Shown here piece after piece: positions 4,818 through 19,693 of a stretch of 21,381 nt of DNA. Position 1 is the stretch's first letter. The number at the start of each line of letters is the position of its first letter. Under the pieces are notes generated by a model that was not told the DNA's origin, did not search any database, and was given only the letters and a program-made list of their open reading frames with translations. Source of the stretch: a virus; the IMG/VR virus record IMGVR_UViG_3300025252_000003, positions 1-21,381 of that record; one strand, given 5' to 3'. Made by a program: the position numbers and the translations under genes.

Positions 4818-5855
4818 TCAGTTGGAGGTGTGACCGCGCACGAGCGTGCCGGGGCGCATGCAGATCTGCATGTTCTGCATCATCGCCTCGACATCGACAT
4901 ACCGGTCTTCCTGACGGTCGGGGAACACGGCGGAGTAGAACTCCTGGCCGGGGGTGTTCGCCATGCCGACATAGTCCGGCGAGCCGTTGAAGGTCCGGAA
5001 GGTCTGGCGGGTGCCCAGGGGGAAGAACGCCGCCTCCGCTGCGGGGATGAAGCTGCGGGTGACCGTGGTGCCGTCCTCCTGCGGGACCGGTGCTTCGGCG
5101 AGGTATTCCTTCCAGAGGATGCCGCCGAAGCTGAACCCCGACGACGTGTCGTCGCGCAGCGGATCGCCGCCGTTGGCATTCTGGAAGTACTTGTAGCGTT
5201 CCTTGAAGTCCGCGTGGCCCATGAGCTTGTCGGTGAACTCGGGGTTGATGAGCCCCATGACACCGGTCATCACGTCACCCAGCAGGTTCAGGCGGATGTG
5301 GCGCGTCACCTCGCGGCACTTCGCACCGAGGTCGGTGGTGCCGGTGCCAAACACGAAGTCCACCGATTTGCGGGTGATCTCGAACTTGTCGAAGAGGTCG
5401 ACGAGCTCGGAGCCATCGGCATCGAGAACGACGCCCTGGATCGCCTGGGACCGGTGGTACTCGCGTGTGATGTCGATCGAGCCGCGCAGCTCTTCCTGCC
5501 GGTCCATGACCTCGTCCTGAGCCTGTTTCAGCTCCGTCTCGGAGCCGAAGGCGCGGATGTTGTCGATGTCGTCGGCGGTGATCCGGGATTTGAGGCCGAA
5601 GCGCTCGGTGCGGAAGTCGACCATCTTGCGCTTGCTGCGCGCCTGGCCGGGCATCGGGGTGCCACGCTCCGACGATTGCACGAGCTGCAGCACGCCGTTC
5701 TTGCTCTCGATCGAGAACACGGTGCCCCGGATGCCCTTGGAGCTGAACAGCCCCATGGTGCCGATCGTGCCCCACTGGTTCGGGATCACCCGGATCGCCT
5801 CGCCGAGGGCCATGGCGGAGAAGGCATCCCCCTTGAAGATGTTGATATGGGCCAT
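4818..5855 (-). CDS. Major capsid protein (lambda gpE family)
   Basis: A 345-residue protein forming the HK97-fold shell. It starts MAHINIFKGDAFSAMALGEA and shows the phage_cap_E pattern: an N-terminal arm, then GTPMPGQARSKRKMVDFRTE, RITADDIDNIRAFGSETELK, QDEVMDRQEELRGSIDITRE, and a C-terminal portion with AFFPLGTRQTFRTFNGSPDY. The length matches gpE (341 in lambda). The chosen ATG at 5855 has AGGAGG 6 nt upstream; the frame is open to 6062 but that part is Arg/Ser/Pro-rich shadow. The ribosome binding site lies in a small palindrome, GGAGGCCTCC. It is preceded by the decoration gene and flanked on both sides by hairpins. Confidence 0.93.
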   Translation of the reverse strand: MAHINIFKGDAFSAMALGEAIRVIPNQWGTIGTMGLFSSKGIRGTVFSIESKNGVLQLVQSSERGTPMPGQARSKRKMVDFRTERFGLKSRITADDIDNIRAFGSETELKQAQDEVMDRQEELRGSIDITREYHRSQAIQGVVLDADGSELVDLFDKFEITRKSVDFVFGTGTTDLGAKCREVTRHIRLNLLGDVMTGVMGLINPEFTDKLMGHADFKERYKYFQNANGGDPLRDDTSSGFSFGGILWKEYLAEAPVPQEDGTTVTRSFIPAAEAAFFPLGTRQTFRTFNGSPDYVGMANTPGQEFYSAVFPDRQEDRYVDVEAMMQNMQICMRPGTLVRGHTSN

Positions 5856-6770: not shown

Positions 6771-7715
6771 CGGGGATCCTCCTTTTGCGGTGGGGGTCTG
6801 GGGACGCGCCCGCGCGCGCCCGTTCAATTCATCGGCGAAGGCCTCGAAGGCCTCGCGCGGGTTGGCGATCTCGTCGGCAAGGCCCGCTGCGACGGCATCT
6901 ACGCCAATCAGGCAGCGCGCCTCGGTGGCAAGCGCTGCATCGGCGGTGAGCAGATCGCCACGCCCTTGCCCGACCGTCTCGGCGAAGATGCCGCGCAGCT
7001 GCTCCATCTCGGCCCGCAGATCCTCGCGGACCGCGTCCGGCAGCGGCTCATAGGGGTTGCCGTCGGCCTTGTGGGCCCCCGCGGCAATGACCGTCACCTG
7101 GACCCCCATGTTCTCGAGCGCGGCGGAATGATCCGCATGCATGCAGATCACGCCAATCGAACCCGCCCCGGCCGTGCGCGGCATCACGATGCGCGTCGCC
7201 TGTGATGCGATCGCGTAACCTGCCGAATAGGCGTGGTCGCTGACGAAGGACCACACGGGCTTTTCCTCGCGCAGAGCGCGGATCTGGTCGGCGAGCGAGA
7301 AGCACCCCGCCACCTCGCCGCCGAAGCTGTCGATCTCGAGAGCAACGCCGCGCACCATCCCATCCCGACGCGCCATCTCGAGCTGCGCCGAAAGCCCCTC
7401 GTATGTGGTTTCCCCCGAGGACTGGCCGATCCAGGCGCCGCGATGGATCAGCGTGCCGGTCACCGGGATGACAGCGATACCATCCCGCATCCGGTAGGGA
7501 GACCGGCTTCCGCTGCGGATGTCATCCTCGAGGCGCTCGTCGAGCAGAGACGCCTTGGCGCGGCGACTTGCCTCCGGCGTCGCATCGGCGCCGCGGATCT
7601 CCACGTCCGAGCCGAAGATCCGGGGGCCGAACCCCATGATGAACGCTGCAGCCTTGGCAGGCGCAGCAAGAAGCGGCGTGTGAAACACACGCGCCGCGAT
7701 CTGCGGATGTCGCAT
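6363..7715 (-). CDS. S49-family prohead protease with C-terminal scaffold (lambda C/Nu3-like)
   Basis: A 450-residue protein starting MRHPQIAARVFHTPLLAAPA. The protease matures the prohead and clears the scaffold. Residues 80-250 form the S49/ClpP-like domain: GIAVIPVTGTL near 79, the GG turn DSFGGEVAG near 129, the nucleophile Ser164 in HAYSAGYAIAS, GAGSIGV near 183, and a likely catalytic Lys216 in AGAHKADGNPY. Residues 300-360 are a Thr/Ala/Pro-rich linker, and the tail is a helical scaffold. GAGGA lies 8 nt before the ATG, which is 4 nt after the portal stop; the frame is open 16 codons further upstream inside the portal gene and was not used. An internal start at 6770 can make the scaffold alone. 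Confidence 0.92.
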   Translation of the reverse strand: MRHPQIAARVFHTPLLAAPAKAAAFIMGFGPRIFGSDVEIRGADATPEASRRAKASLLDERLEDDIRSGSRSPYRMRDGIAVIPVTGTLIHRGAWIGQSSGETTYEGLSAQLEMARRDGMVRGVALEIDSFGGEVAGCFSLADQIRALREEKPVWSFVSDHAYSAGYAIASQATRIVMPRTAGAGSIGVICMHADHSAALENMGVQVTVIAAGAHKADGNPYEPLPDAVREDLRAEMEQLRGIFAETVGQGRGDLLTADAALATEARCLIGVDAVAAGLADEIANPREAFEAFADELNGRARARPQTPTAKGGSPMSGPTTETTTPTAATPPAATTPTPAPDAASPTATAPAPAEPAAEDPKARIAAILKSPEAKGREDLAQSFAFNSDMPSAEAIKHLAAAPKSDAAAPASLSTTIDAEATELDAPAPDAGASAAPSIAERAAKRHGAK

Positions 7716-16801: not shown

Positions 16802-17130
16802 CAGGCCGCCCTTTTCGCGTCCGTCGCGACAACAGCCGCGAGGTGATCCAGGAAGCCGGGGCATTCCAGCGTCGCGATCATCACCTTGTCGGCGGTCGGG
16901 CGGGTCGTGCCGTTCCACCAGTTCCAGGCCGTGCTGTTTCGCACCTCGAAGAACCCGGCGACATCCTCGGGGCGCCGAAAGGCCCGGCGCAGCCAGTCCG
17001 ACCAGATTTCGGCCGCGATGACTTGCATCCGGTATCGGTCCAAAGCTTTGGACCGCGACACGCGCGGGAACACCGAGTCAGCGTCGCCGCATGGTTCATT
17101 CGATACGACGAGTTTCAGATTGTTGGTCAT
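16801..17130 (-). CDS. HTH DNA-binding protein in CII position
   Basis: A 109-residue protein starting MTNNLKLVVSNEPCGDADSV. Residues 60-90 (RRPEDVAGFFEVRNSTAWNW, then WNGTTRPTADKVMIA) look like a Cro/CI-type helix-turn-helix. In lambda the gene after cro is cII, an HTH activator of the lysogenic promoters; here the same place, size class and HTH suggest an early regulator, but no CII similarity is claimed. The ATG at 17130 overlaps the Cro-like stop (ATGA). The frame is open to 17238 but only as a shadow of the Cro-like gene. Confidence 0.74.
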   Translation of the reverse strand: MTNNLKLVVSNEPCGDADSVFPRVSRSKALDRYRMQVIAAEIWSDWLRRAFRRPEDVAGFFEVRNSTAWNWWNGTTRPTADKVMIATLECPGFLDHLAAVVATDAKRAA

Positions 17131-17327
17131 GCGGCGTCCTCGGTCGGGGGATTCTCGGCCATGAACTCGCGCAGCCTGTCGACGCGGGTCATCGTCGGGC
17201 TGGACTTGCGTGCCTTCCACGATCCCCATTCTCGCCAACCCGCGCCAATGGCATCGCGCAGTACCGCTTGCGGGGTGCGTCCTACCGAGGCTGCGTAAGC
17301 CTCAACTTCTGCGATCAACTGCTCCAT
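17127..17327 (-). CDS. Cro-like early regulator
   Basis: A 66-residue protein, the size of lambda Cro, starting MEQLIAEVEAYAASVGRTPQ. The middle, TPQAVLRDAIGAGWREWGSW KARKSSPTMTRVDRLREFMA, fits a small helix-turn-helix of the kind paired with CI repressors in Rhodobacteraceae prophages. It diverges from cI, with the palindromic operator between them, and is the first gene of the long minus-strand operon. No ribosome binding site is visible; the predicted -10 lies so close that the message may be leaderless. Cro identity rests on position, size and HTH. Confidence 0.75.
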   Translation of the reverse strand: MEQLIAEVEAYAASVGRTPQAVLRDAIGAGWREWGSWKARKSSPTMTRVDRLREFMAENPPTEDAA

Positions 17328-17334
17328 AGCCAGC

Positions 17335-17364
17335 TTTATGGGGTATCAATACCCCATATGGCAA
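17335..17364 (-). promoter_or_regulatory. Predicted early promoter of the Cro-side operon
   Basis: On the minus strand TTGCCA (17364-17359) is followed after 18 nt by CATAAA (17340-17335). The CI operator lies in the spacer, so bound repressor would exclude RNA polymerase. Transcription would begin near 17328, at the Cro ATG (17327). The boxes are read by eye and not proven. Confidence 0.5.
17337..17358. promoter_or_regulatory. CI operator (OR-like), 10-bp perfect arms
   Basis: TATGGGGTAT and ATACCCCATA are separated by CA, in the cI-cro divergent gap. The core GGGGTATCAATACCCC recurs in two further copies at 19279-19323 and, as far as I can see, nowhere else in the window. A poor variant, AGGGTAATTTGCACCCCT, lies at 17364-17381 and may be a second weak site. 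Binding by the CI protein is inferred from the layout. Confidence 0.8.
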
Positions 17365-17397
17365 GGGTAATTTGCACCCCTAGCGAAGCCGGACGCC

Positions 17398-18051
17398 ATG
17401 ATTGACAAAATCGCTATGGCCCGCACGTTCATCGAAGCGCTACAACACGCCCTTGCTGTGACCGGGCGCTCCGTCCGCAGCTTAGCTTCGGAGACCGGCA
17501 TCCCGTATGAGCGCTTAAAACAGGTGGCTCGTGGACGAACTGCGACAACGAATGCTGATGACGCCTATCTCATCGCAAGGGCATTCGGCGGGACTTACGA
17601 GCAGTTCATGGACGGCAGCCTGATACACCCCCAGACAATTGCGATTGCGGGCAAGGTTGGGGCTGGCGCCAAGGTTCCCGTTTTTGACGCCTACGTGAAG
17701 GGCGACGGCCCTCAGGTTGAGTGCCCCCCGGGTCTATCAGCATCTGGCGTGGTCGCAGTAGAAATCGAAGGCGACAGCATGGAGCCGATCTATAGCGACG
17801 GCGACCTTCTCTTCTATACCCGAGTCAGTCACGACGGCGTACCGGATGACGTAGTTGGGCACCGTTGCGTTGTGGAGGACGAGGACGGGATGGGCTGGGT
17901 TAAGCAAGTAAAGCCTGGAGATGAACCCGGCCTGTTCCATTTAATCTCGCTTAACCCTGGAGCCACCACCATGTGGAACAAGCGGCTCAAGTGGGCCGCT
18001 GCAGTCCGCCTTCATTGGCCAGCAGACCTCGCTCGGAAATCACACAGCTAG
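17398..18051 (+). CDS. CI-type prophage repressor (HTH plus S24/LexA-like peptidase)
   Basis: A 217-residue protein. Residues 10-60 form an XRE helix-turn-helix (VRSLASETGIPYERLKQVAR). Residues 85-205 form an S24 domain with the nucleophile Ser127 in GDSMEP and the likely general base Lys169 in MGWVKQV. An Ala-Gly at 84-85 (IAIAGKVGAG) is the likely self-cleavage site, so induction through RecA after DNA damage is expected. The gene diverges from the Cro-like gene and lies between operator sets at 17337 and 19279. The ribosome binding site is weak. Its GC is lower than that of the late genes. It is followed, 78 bp on, by the nuclease-like gene in the same direction. Confidence 0.92.
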   Translation: MIDKIAMARTFIEALQHALAVTGRSVRSLASETGIPYERLKQVARGRTATTNADDAYLIARAFGGTYEQFMDGSLIHPQTIAIAGKVGAGAKVPVFDAYVKGDGPQVECPPGLSASGVVAVEIEGDSMEPIYSDGDLLFYTRVSHDGVPDDVVGHRCVVEDEDGMGWVKQVKPGDEPGLFHLISLNPGATTMWNKRLKWAAAVRLHWPADLARKSHS

Positions 18052-18129
18052 CGCAAAAAAACCTAGACTCCCGCAGAACGCGCATCTCACGCTTATTCGG
18101 CACCCGAATCGCATCGTTAGGAGTAAAGA

Positions 18130-19197
18130 ATGAGCAGTTTCGCCGAACAGATGGGAACCCTTGCTGCGAGATCGAAGTCAGCGGAGCGCCAAGCCCTGAC
18201 CGAAGAAGCGACAAAAACCGCGGTCGTCCTCCCGTTCATCCAATCCCTTGGCTTCGACGTCTTCAATCTAGACGAGGTAATGCCAGAGTTCGTCGCCGAC
18301 GTCGGAACCAAGAAGGGTGAGAAAGTTGATTTCGCGATCAAGATCGATGGCAAGATTGCCATGCTCGTTGAAGCAAAACCGATCAACAGCAAGCTCGGCG
18401 AAACTCAGTTCAGTCAGCTTTTCAGATACTTCCACGTCACTGAAGCTCGCCTCGCCATACTCACCAATGGCAAGGAGGCCTGGTTCTTCTCAGACATTGA
18501 TGAACCGAACAAGATGGACAGCAAGCCCTTCTTTAAGTTCGATTTCCAAAACCATGACCGAGCACAGGTTCAGGAGATTGCCCGCTTCCAGAAGGAGTGC
18601 TTTGCCATTGACTCGATTGTCGAAGCGGCATCCAATCTTAAGTACACGCGCGCAGCCGCCAACTATCTTTCACAGCAAATGAACGAACCGGATGACGACT
18701 TCGTACGGCTTGTCGGACGACAGATCCACGAGGGTCCGATAACGAAGTCCGTGTCCGAGCAGCTTAAGCCCGCCATTCAGGCCGCACTGAATGAGATCAT
18801 ACGCAATCAGATCCAAGATAAATTAAGCATCACACTGGGCAGCTCAAATACCGCCCCCACACCGAAGCCCACGCCGACACATGAAGCGCCACAAGCCGAC
18901 ATCGAAACCACTGAGGAAGAGATTGAGGGCTTCATGATCGTACGCGCTATCGCCGCAAAGCTTACCCCGGTCAGCCGCATCACCATTCGTGACGCCAAAA
19001 GCTACTGCGCCATCCTAATGGATGATAACAACCGTCGCCCGATTTGCAGGCTATACTTCAACTCTGCGACAACGAAGAATATTGGACTCTTTGACGAGAG
19101 CAAAACGGAAACAAGGGTTCGCGTAGAAGGCCCAGGCGACATCTACAGCCACGCCGATGCAATCGAAGCGGTGGTGCAGAGCTATCTGAAAACCTAG
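18130..19197 (+). CDS. HsdR_N / type IV restriction-like PD-(D/E)xK protein in the rex position
   Basis: A 355-residue protein. Residues 18-125 resemble the HsdR N-terminal nuclease domain (COG2810, predicted type IV restriction endonuclease): ALTEEATKTAVVLPFIQSLG with Glu25/26, then Asp67 in EKVDFAIKID and Glu81/Lys83 in MLVEAKPIN, followed by QFSQLFRYFHVTEARLAILT. A helical middle, a Pro/Thr linker near 235-255 and a C-terminal beta domain (DAKSYCAILMDDNNRRPICR) follow. There is no helicase, methylase or specificity subunit nearby. AGGAG lies 6 nt before the ATG. GC is clearly lower than in the flanks. Placed after cI inside the operator-flanked cassette, it is likely expressed in the lysogen, and a role in superinfection exclusion is an inference. 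Confidence 0.82.
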   Translation: MSSFAEQMGTLAARSKSAERQALTEEATKTAVVLPFIQSLGFDVFNLDEVMPEFVADVGTKKGEKVDFAIKIDGKIAMLVEAKPINSKLGETQFSQLFRYFHVTEARLAILTNGKEAWFFSDIDEPNKMDSKPFFKFDFQNHDRAQVQEIARFQKECFAIDSIVEAASNLKYTRAAANYLSQQMNEPDDDFVRLVGRQIHEGPITKSVSEQLKPAIQAALNEIIRNQIQDKLSITLGSSNTAPTPKPTPTHEAPQADIETTEEEIEGFMIVRAIAAKLTPVSRITIRDAKSYCAILMDDNNRRPICRLYFNSATTKNIGLFDESKTETRVRVEGPGDIYSHADAIEAVVQSYLKT

Positions 19198-19278
19198 TCA
19201 ACCCACATCTCGGCACACCAAAAGGCTGCACACAACGCTCCGCCGCCGGCCCCGGCACGATGCTGCGCCGATCATTAT
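19198..19278. other. Gap between the nuclease-like gene and the right operators
   Basis: I see no gene, hairpin terminator or repeat in this stretch. If the cI message ends here, the signal is not an obvious intrinsic terminator. Confidence 0.4.
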
Positions 19279-19294
19279 GGGGTATTGATACCCT
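19279..19294. promoter_or_regulatory. CI operator, right control region, distal copy
   Basis: GGGGTATTGATACCCT has 6-7-bp arms and is the reverse orientation of the same core as the site at 17337; its left flank TAT also matches. It lies 8 bp upstream of the TTGACA box and 29 bp from the next copy, about three helical turns, allowing side-by-side or cooperative binding. Confidence 0.75.
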
Positions 19295-19301
19295 TTTTCT
19301 A

Positions 19302-19330
19302 TTGACAGGGGTATCAATACCCTACTAGCG
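19302..19330 (+). promoter_or_regulatory. Early promoter of the right operon (PL-like)
   Basis: A perfect TTGACA (19302-19307) is followed 15 nt later by TACTAG (19323-19328), the best -10 candidate (CTAGCG at 17 nt is the alternative). A CI operator fills the spacer. The first gene begins at 19358 with GGAGG in front. Confidence 0.6.
19308..19323. promoter_or_regulatory. CI operator, right control region, promoter copy
   Basis: GGGGTATCAATACCCT matches 15 of 16 bases of the core at 17340-17355. It occupies the spacer of the TTGACA promoter, so CI binding would switch off the right operon in the lysogen. Confidence 0.8.
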
Positions 19331-19357
19331 TGCCTTCATCAACCGATGGAGGCACTC

Positions 19358-19693
19358 ATGCCGAACAAGTACGTTCTCCCCGAAGAGGCGGCCTTCCTGA
19401 CCAACCCGGAGGCCGCCGCCGCTGACCGCATCACCCGCCAGGATTTCTGGTTGCTCGCAAAGCAGCGGCAGGGACACCCGATTACCCACGAGGCAGGGAA
19501 CCGCCTCCACGACCTTGAAGTCCGCATTTCCGGACGCCCGACGCTGGTGCACGTCGTCACCGACAGCGACCCCGAGCCCGAACCGCCCACCCCGGCGATG
19601 ACCGAGGTCGAGGCCGGGCGCCTGCGTGCCCTGCCCGCCATCCGCGCCGCCGTCGCCCGCAAGCTCCATCTTGGCGGTGGCGAGGCAGCATGA
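19358..19693 (+). CDS. First gene of right early operon, hypothetical
   Basis: A 111-residue protein starting MPNKYVLPEEAAFLTNPEAA, with a helical N-terminus (DRITRQDFWLLAKQRQGHPI), a short middle, an acidic Pro-rich hinge (DSDPEPEPPTP) and a C-terminal helix (AGRLRALPAIRAAVARKLHL). I recognise no family. The start at 19358 has GGAGG at 5 nt; an in-frame ATG at 19346 would overlap that ribosome binding site. It lies about 30 bp after the predicted -10 and is therefore among the first products made on induction. Its stop overlaps the next ATG (ATGA). Confidence 0.74.
   Translation: MPNKYVLPEEAAFLTNPEAAAADRITRQDFWLLAKQRQGHPITHEAGNRLHDLEVRISGRPTLVHVVTDSDPEPEPPTPAMTEVEAGRLRALPAIRAAVARKLHLGGGEAA

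Follow-up and report, generated by a model that had tools for sequence, protein, structure and literature searches.

A candidate defence slot between CI operators in lambda-like prophages of Rhodobacterales, and the putative antiphage nuclease that occupies it

Gene order and operators of the immunity region

The window studied here, that is, the whole stretch of viral DNA with its 21,381 bp, contains a repressor gene, cI (17398..18051, plus strand, 217 aa), followed on the same strand by a gene of 355 aa (18130..19197) encoding a phrog_4225 nuclease, which we call the cargo gene. To the left, a small minus-strand ORF of 66 aa (17127..17327) opens the left operon in the position of cro; it matches no Pfam or PHROG family over the cut-off, and its putative function is taken from its position. 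To the right, an ORF of 115 aa (19346..19693, plus strand) is the first of the right operon, and look-alikes open the right operon in two related loci (L111 and L041).

A motif scan of the whole window placed the 16-bp operator core GGGGTATCAATACCCC between cI and the cro-position gene without mismatch (OR1, 17340-17355), as a perfect palindrome whose arms reach 10 bp if extended, and twice in front of the right operon with one mismatch each (OL1, 19279-19294, in minus orientation, and OL2, 19308-19323). These are exactly the three positions given by an earlier sequence-only reading of this DNA. A scan for further copies found no fourth within three mismatches anywhere in the 21,381-bp record, an IMG/VR fragment, where shuffles expect 0.05 copies. 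Its three core sites thus stand, but its view of the OR side as a single site does not: it overlooked a degenerate OR2, AGGGTAATTTGCACCC, at about 17364..17380, with a 24-bp spacing that is kept across the CI family. We recognised no third site on the OR side of the window, unlike in many relatives, which have one at 58-59 bp. A -35 box, TTGACA (19302..19307, plus strand), lies between OL1 and OL2, with OL2 immediately 3' of it, and belongs to the predicted promoter of the right operon; its position is kept in nearly all of 58 related loci.

Both genes between the operators are on the plus strand, and the cargo gene has the lower GC content (0.53, against 0.58 for cI and 0.66 for the window), as had been read from the sequence. 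The distance of about 1.95 kb between the operator sets was likewise accurate: OR1 lies 1939 and 1968 bp from OL1 and OL2, start to start. We found no terminator-like site in the 78-bp gap that separates cI from the cargo gene; the first one downstream on the plus strand is OL1 itself, whose hairpin and 3' T-run (19279-19299) read as an intrinsic terminator. Across the CI family, T is enriched 3' of OL1 (4.2 of 9 nucleotides, against 2.0 after OR), and OL1 may double as the terminator of a cI-cargo transcript.

The repressor was identified by profile searches (PF00717, E = 4e-8; phrog_4, E = 3e-13) and by conserved columns. All the features of an SOS-cleavable repressor of the lambda type are present: an S24 domain, an Ala-Gly cleavage site (A84-G85) and a Ser-Lys dyad (S127/K169), the last two invariant among 19 homologues. 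In the same alignment the C-terminal half is highly conserved while the DNA-binding half is divergent, which is the pattern expected if the operator sequence is phage-specific. The nearest CI that we located, at 98%, is that of Salipiger thiooxidans DSM 10146, whose cassette (L096) is almost identical to the one described here.

Operator layout across the CI family

We collected relatives of this CI from IMG/VR and from GTDB genomes and obtained 93 loci, mainly from Rhodobacterales, once duplicates were removed. The scan of each locus looked for a palindrome that stands upstream of cI and appears again downstream as two copies 27-31 bp apart. The layout score, with a threshold of at least 8, was developed from the initial 23 loci before being run on all 93, and 465 locally shuffled controls served as the null; a null of reversed sequences was dropped, since palindromes remain palindromic when reversed. 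The window-type layout was found in 58 of the 93 loci, against a single one of the 465 controls, and the other 35 fell below the threshold.

Operators differ from locus to locus, with a mean of 6.1 mismatches between loci against 1.8 within a locus, a value that none of 2000 permutations matched. This within-locus match hints, indirectly, that CI may bind these palindromes, which we take as its predicted operators. In nearly all 58 loci a TTGAC(A) -35 box is found between OL1 and OL2, and OL2 abuts it. On the OR side, OR1 is joined by a weaker second site at a distance of 24 bp and, in many loci, by a third at 58-59 bp, forming a lambda-like cluster.

One member of the family is Paracoccus phage Pyei1, which is mitomycin-inducible (PMC6536676). 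Its immunity region (L223, MK291445, 4903-7012) shows the window-type layout, with OR sites at 4903 and 4929 and an OL pair at 6968 and 6997, and its slot holds three small ORFs to which we assigned no function.

The similarity to the OR-cI-rexAB-OL region of lambda is one of architecture. In both, cI and cargo lie in the same direction between two operator sets, the cargo being placed like rexAB between cI and OL on the cI strand; OL fronts the opposite operon, and OR comprises several sites. The differences are that lambda has three OL sites where the window has two, that the cargo is unrelated to RexA and RexB, and that the CI family and the host clade are others. The earlier proposal of a rex-position cargo gene between two sets of CI operators is strongly supported by the 58 related loci.

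It had also been suggested that CI bound at both sets may form a DNA loop. The lambda OR-OL loop spans about 2.4 kb, and looping at 1.95 kb is possible. Across the family, the OR-OL spacing ranges from 734 to 5888 bp and shows no helical phasing (resultant 0.14); being variable and unphased, it speaks neither for nor against looping.

An exchangeable slot behind cI

Across the 58 loci, the interval from the cI stop codon to OL1 can be as short as 23 bp, in which case it is empty, or as long as about 5 kb. No ORF is present in ten of the slots; more than 40 contain cargo, mostly unannotated, and almost all cargo clusters are singletons. The variable cargo between conserved flanks that characterises prophage hotspots is therefore present here, and is best seen by comparing L150 with L105: these loci share 90% nucleotide identity in cI, 97% in the OR region and 92% in OL, yet their cargo is unrelated. 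In all 47 of 47 comparisons the GC content of the slot was lower than that of the right flank.

Several slots hold genes with a recognisable link to defence. We found PD-Lambda-5 A and B (L108; E = 4e-150 and 1e-120), an AriA/ATPase-Toprim-like protein (L150), an AAA/STAND-like ATPase (L103), a UvrD helicase with DarT and an ADP-ribosylglycohydrolase (L139), a PDC-M04A-like DUF3800 protein (L098) and, less certainly given its truncated cI match, a cytosine methyltransferase with a HATPase protein (L190). PADLOC matched 8 of 20 cargo proteins at E<1e-5, a rate biased by the fact that most were picked by size, against none of 10 right-flank genes. Cargo with no clear link to defence also occurs, namely GGDEF/CBS, glycosyltransferase and VasI genes. 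On the whole, sequence comparison portrays the slot as exchangeable and often occupied by known or likely antiphage genes. In several slots (L150 and L105, for instance) cargo genes are on the minus strand and need a promoter of their own, so that co-transcription with cI is no rule of the slot.

Two other kinds of cargo deserve mention. The largest recurrent cluster has five members, all small proteins, in slots including L035, L148, L168 and L183; several visibly combine a coiled coil with one membrane segment, making this a candidate exclusion family. Two-gene cargo of sizes similar to RexA and RexB is seen in L154 (6761-8096, 282 and 164 aa) and L163 (6680-8075, 303 and 160 aa), and the second protein of L154 has several membrane segments. 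Homology to RexA/RexB was rejected at the sequence level for these pairs, as searches of PDB sequences, PHROG and PADLOC all came up empty; the window cargo is no RexA/RexB homologue either, since it belongs to phrog_4225.

The nuclease of the window

The cargo protein matches phrog_4225, annotated as 'endonuclease', over residues 2-353 of 355 (E = 2.2e-105), and the HSDR_N domain PF04313 (E = 7e-11). Its predicted architecture is a PD-(D/E)xK domain of HsdR_N type (residues 1-170), a helical linker and a C-terminal alpha-beta5-alpha domain (residues 260-353), in an AF2 model with a pLDDT of 84 at full length. Across 28 homologues, the most distant at about 29% identity, residues E25, D67, E81-x-K83 and Q96-x-x-R-Y100 are invariant; together they make up the complete PD-(D/E)xK and QxxxY signature known from HsdR nuclease domains. 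The modelled fold of residues 1-170 matches those of DrdV (Z = 12.5) and HsdR (3h1t, Z = 11.8). Between the window gene and its L096 counterpart we counted 30 synonymous and 3 nonsynonymous differences, a dN/dS of 0.027, and the gene is under strong purifying selection. The cargo is a conserved and probably active DNA-cutting enzyme.

Although it shares the nuclease fold and catalytic pattern with HsdR (EcoR124I, 3h1t) and DrdV, this protein differs from both in its lack of a helicase motor and of a methyltransferase or HsdM/HsdS partner in the slot. Pfam and NCBIfam detect no SF2 helicase or translocase motor in the 355 residues, and the slot, a single gene flanked by cI and OL, includes no hsdM or hsdS. 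We therefore rejected membership of type I restriction-modification, for want of motor, methyltransferase and HsdM/HsdS partners. For the nuclease itself, PADLOC gave only a poor hit to type IIG enzymes (E = 1e-4), confined to residues 28-137. We rejected this assignment too, as there is no methyltransferase, and the place where a IIG enzyme would have its methyltransferase and specificity domains is taken by 95 aa of alpha-beta5-alpha fold.

That domain folds confidently on its own in AF2 (pLDDT 94.5; 95 aa). It has no sequence match in the PDB, and the best Foldseek hit has an E-value of 0.3. The structural matches in VIA (CapZ, best Z = 6.4; T4 MotA and YjbR, Z = 5-6) are all in the range of chance, and a MotA-like double-wing DNA-binding fold is only a lead.

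PD-(D/E)xK nucleases are carried by many phages, and an enzyme with conserved catalytic residues could serve the phage's own cycle, in recombination, packaging, host DNA breakdown or replication control. We think this very unlikely: the gene belongs to the operon on the CI side and runs on the lysogenic strand, outside the replication and packaging modules, and close relatives do without the nuclease, having other cargo or none in its place.

Distribution of the phrog_4225 family

Viral homologues of the cargo protein occur repeatedly behind repressors. In 15 of 26 viral loci, annotation or PHROG matches place a repressor just upstream of the homologue, in some cases together with an ImmA-type protease, and by reading the loci we recognised a repressor upstream in about five more, bringing the total to about 20 of 26. 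The repressors are unrelated, and these loci span Firmicutes, Fusobacteria, Actinobacteria and Proteobacteria. In six viral loci (L003, L014, L015, L017, L018 and L028) the homologue is not behind a repressor.

The family also exists outside phages. We found it in 15 of 395 Rhodobacteraceae genomes, in only one of which it adjoins a window-type cI; nearly all the other copies are solitary among apparently chromosomal genes, as seen in views of about 4 kb, and homologues are also found on plasmids. The idea that the family is restricted to phages was rejected on account of these solitary chromosomal and plasmid copies. In three Rhodobacteraceae genomes copies are split or truncated (L221/L222, L219 and L220), which suggests gene decay or loss. 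Judging from these contexts, phrog_4225 is a mobile single-gene function common to hosts and phages. Such shared use fits defence better than a role in the phage cycle, though it is no proof.

Could the gene be a moron, selfish or neutral, which moves about as a nuclease gene, settles at tolerated sites that are expressed in the lysogen and confers no defence against phages? Its sparse and patchy occurrence in Rhodobacteraceae would agree with this, as would the lone chromosomal and plasmid copies and the other positions taken in phages, beside HicAB in L003 and beside a tail-assembly-like gene in L014. Yet strong purifying selection and the repeated placement right behind unrelated repressors speak against it, and we saw no signs of homing, for instance a conserved gene split by the insertion of an endonuclease gene. 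We regard this explanation as unlikely.

In L015 (3200-6077) the homologue lies directly 3' of umuD/umuC-like genes, which suggests an SOS-linked expression. This location, and the fact that the window cargo adjoins cI, would also suit a protein that influences the lysogeny switch or takes part in host repair, perhaps by responding to DNA damage. A role of this kind has been proposed for RexA, which is reported to bind DNA non-specifically and to bias the lambda switch (PMC11077077). The conserved active site argues for catalysis instead, and relatives run an equivalent switch with other cargo or with none. We think this explanation, too, very unlikely.

A proposed role for the slot and its nuclease

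We consider it fairly probable that the window carries the lambda-like immunity region of a Salipiger-type (Rhodobacterales) prophage, whose rex position is an exchangeable slot and whose present cargo is a single-protein antiphage nuclease expressed in the lysogen. CI bound to OR and to both OL sites would repress the left and right operons, as the placement of the sites suggests. The cI and cargo genes would be transcribed together in the lysogen, given their common strand and the short, terminator-free gap between them. The nuclease would recognise its target through the C-terminal domain, and its most likely action would be to cleave the DNA of an invading phage, or DNA in the infected cell, in a type IV-like or abortive manner. 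With no methyltransferase partner, restraint would have to come from target modification, an infection signal or the specificity of the C-terminal domain. Cleavage of CI on induction would silence the shared promoter and may in this way limit damage to the phage itself. Prophages of S. aureus are known to shut down their own defence upon induction (PMC11087260).

The earlier suggestion of a lysogen defence factor thus gains indirect backing from the recognised defence systems in the slots of relatives and from the recurrence of the nuclease family behind unrelated repressors. A tie to lysogeny finds no support in Rhodobacteraceae, where the family (15 of 395 genomes) is mostly solitary and apparently chromosomal, and so is not bound to the lysogenic state.

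Defence slots next to repressors are already known from enterobacterial lambdoid and Vibrio phages. The cI-to-n interval of the former is a diversity hotspot that includes rexAB and bstA (PMC8585504). BstA of the Salmonella prophage BTP1 (PMC8585504) is, like our cargo, the product of a single gene directly 3' of cI, and is expressed in the lysogen; it differs in belonging to another protein family. BstA has a self-immunity element, aba. Defence hotspots are also described in P2/P4 and in P2-related prophages of Vibrionaceae, the latter between cI and integrase (PMC9122126). There, too, the defence cargo varies while the phage genes on its sides are conserved, and one of these hotspots lies beside cI. 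The present slot differs in having the operators of the repressor itself as its borders and in residing in lambda-like prophages of Rhodobacterales. GiPD474 of a Gifsy prophage (PMC12724215) is again a lone defence gene close to the repressor within the immunity region, with an integrase downstream, but it encodes an ATPase-domain protein and comes from Enterobacteriaceae. Our literature search found no paper on phrog_4225 as a defence gene, nor on this slot in Rhodobacterales, and in the text of a survey of Rhodobacteraceae prophages the words 'defense' and 'restriction' are both absent (PMC8224337). The operator-bracketed version in Rhodobacterales and the nuclease family both look new.

A broader claim, that the Rhodobacterales interval from cI to a two-site OL is a modular, CI-bracketed defence slot and that phrog_4225 is a single-protein antiphage nuclease, so far unrecognised, whose recognition domain is of a new type and which was recruited beside repressors in phages of several phyla, is in our judgement evenly balanced. 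The operators would give the slot sharp and computable borders: wherever this CI family and two OL sites are found, the interval is candidate defence cargo. If this is true, new antiphage systems could be found by reading between the operators, and the idea of a rex position would reach beyond the lambdoid phages of enterobacteria into a marine clade. Confirmation of the nuclease would turn an annotation carried in many genomes, 'type I restriction endonuclease', into a defined single-gene antiphage system.
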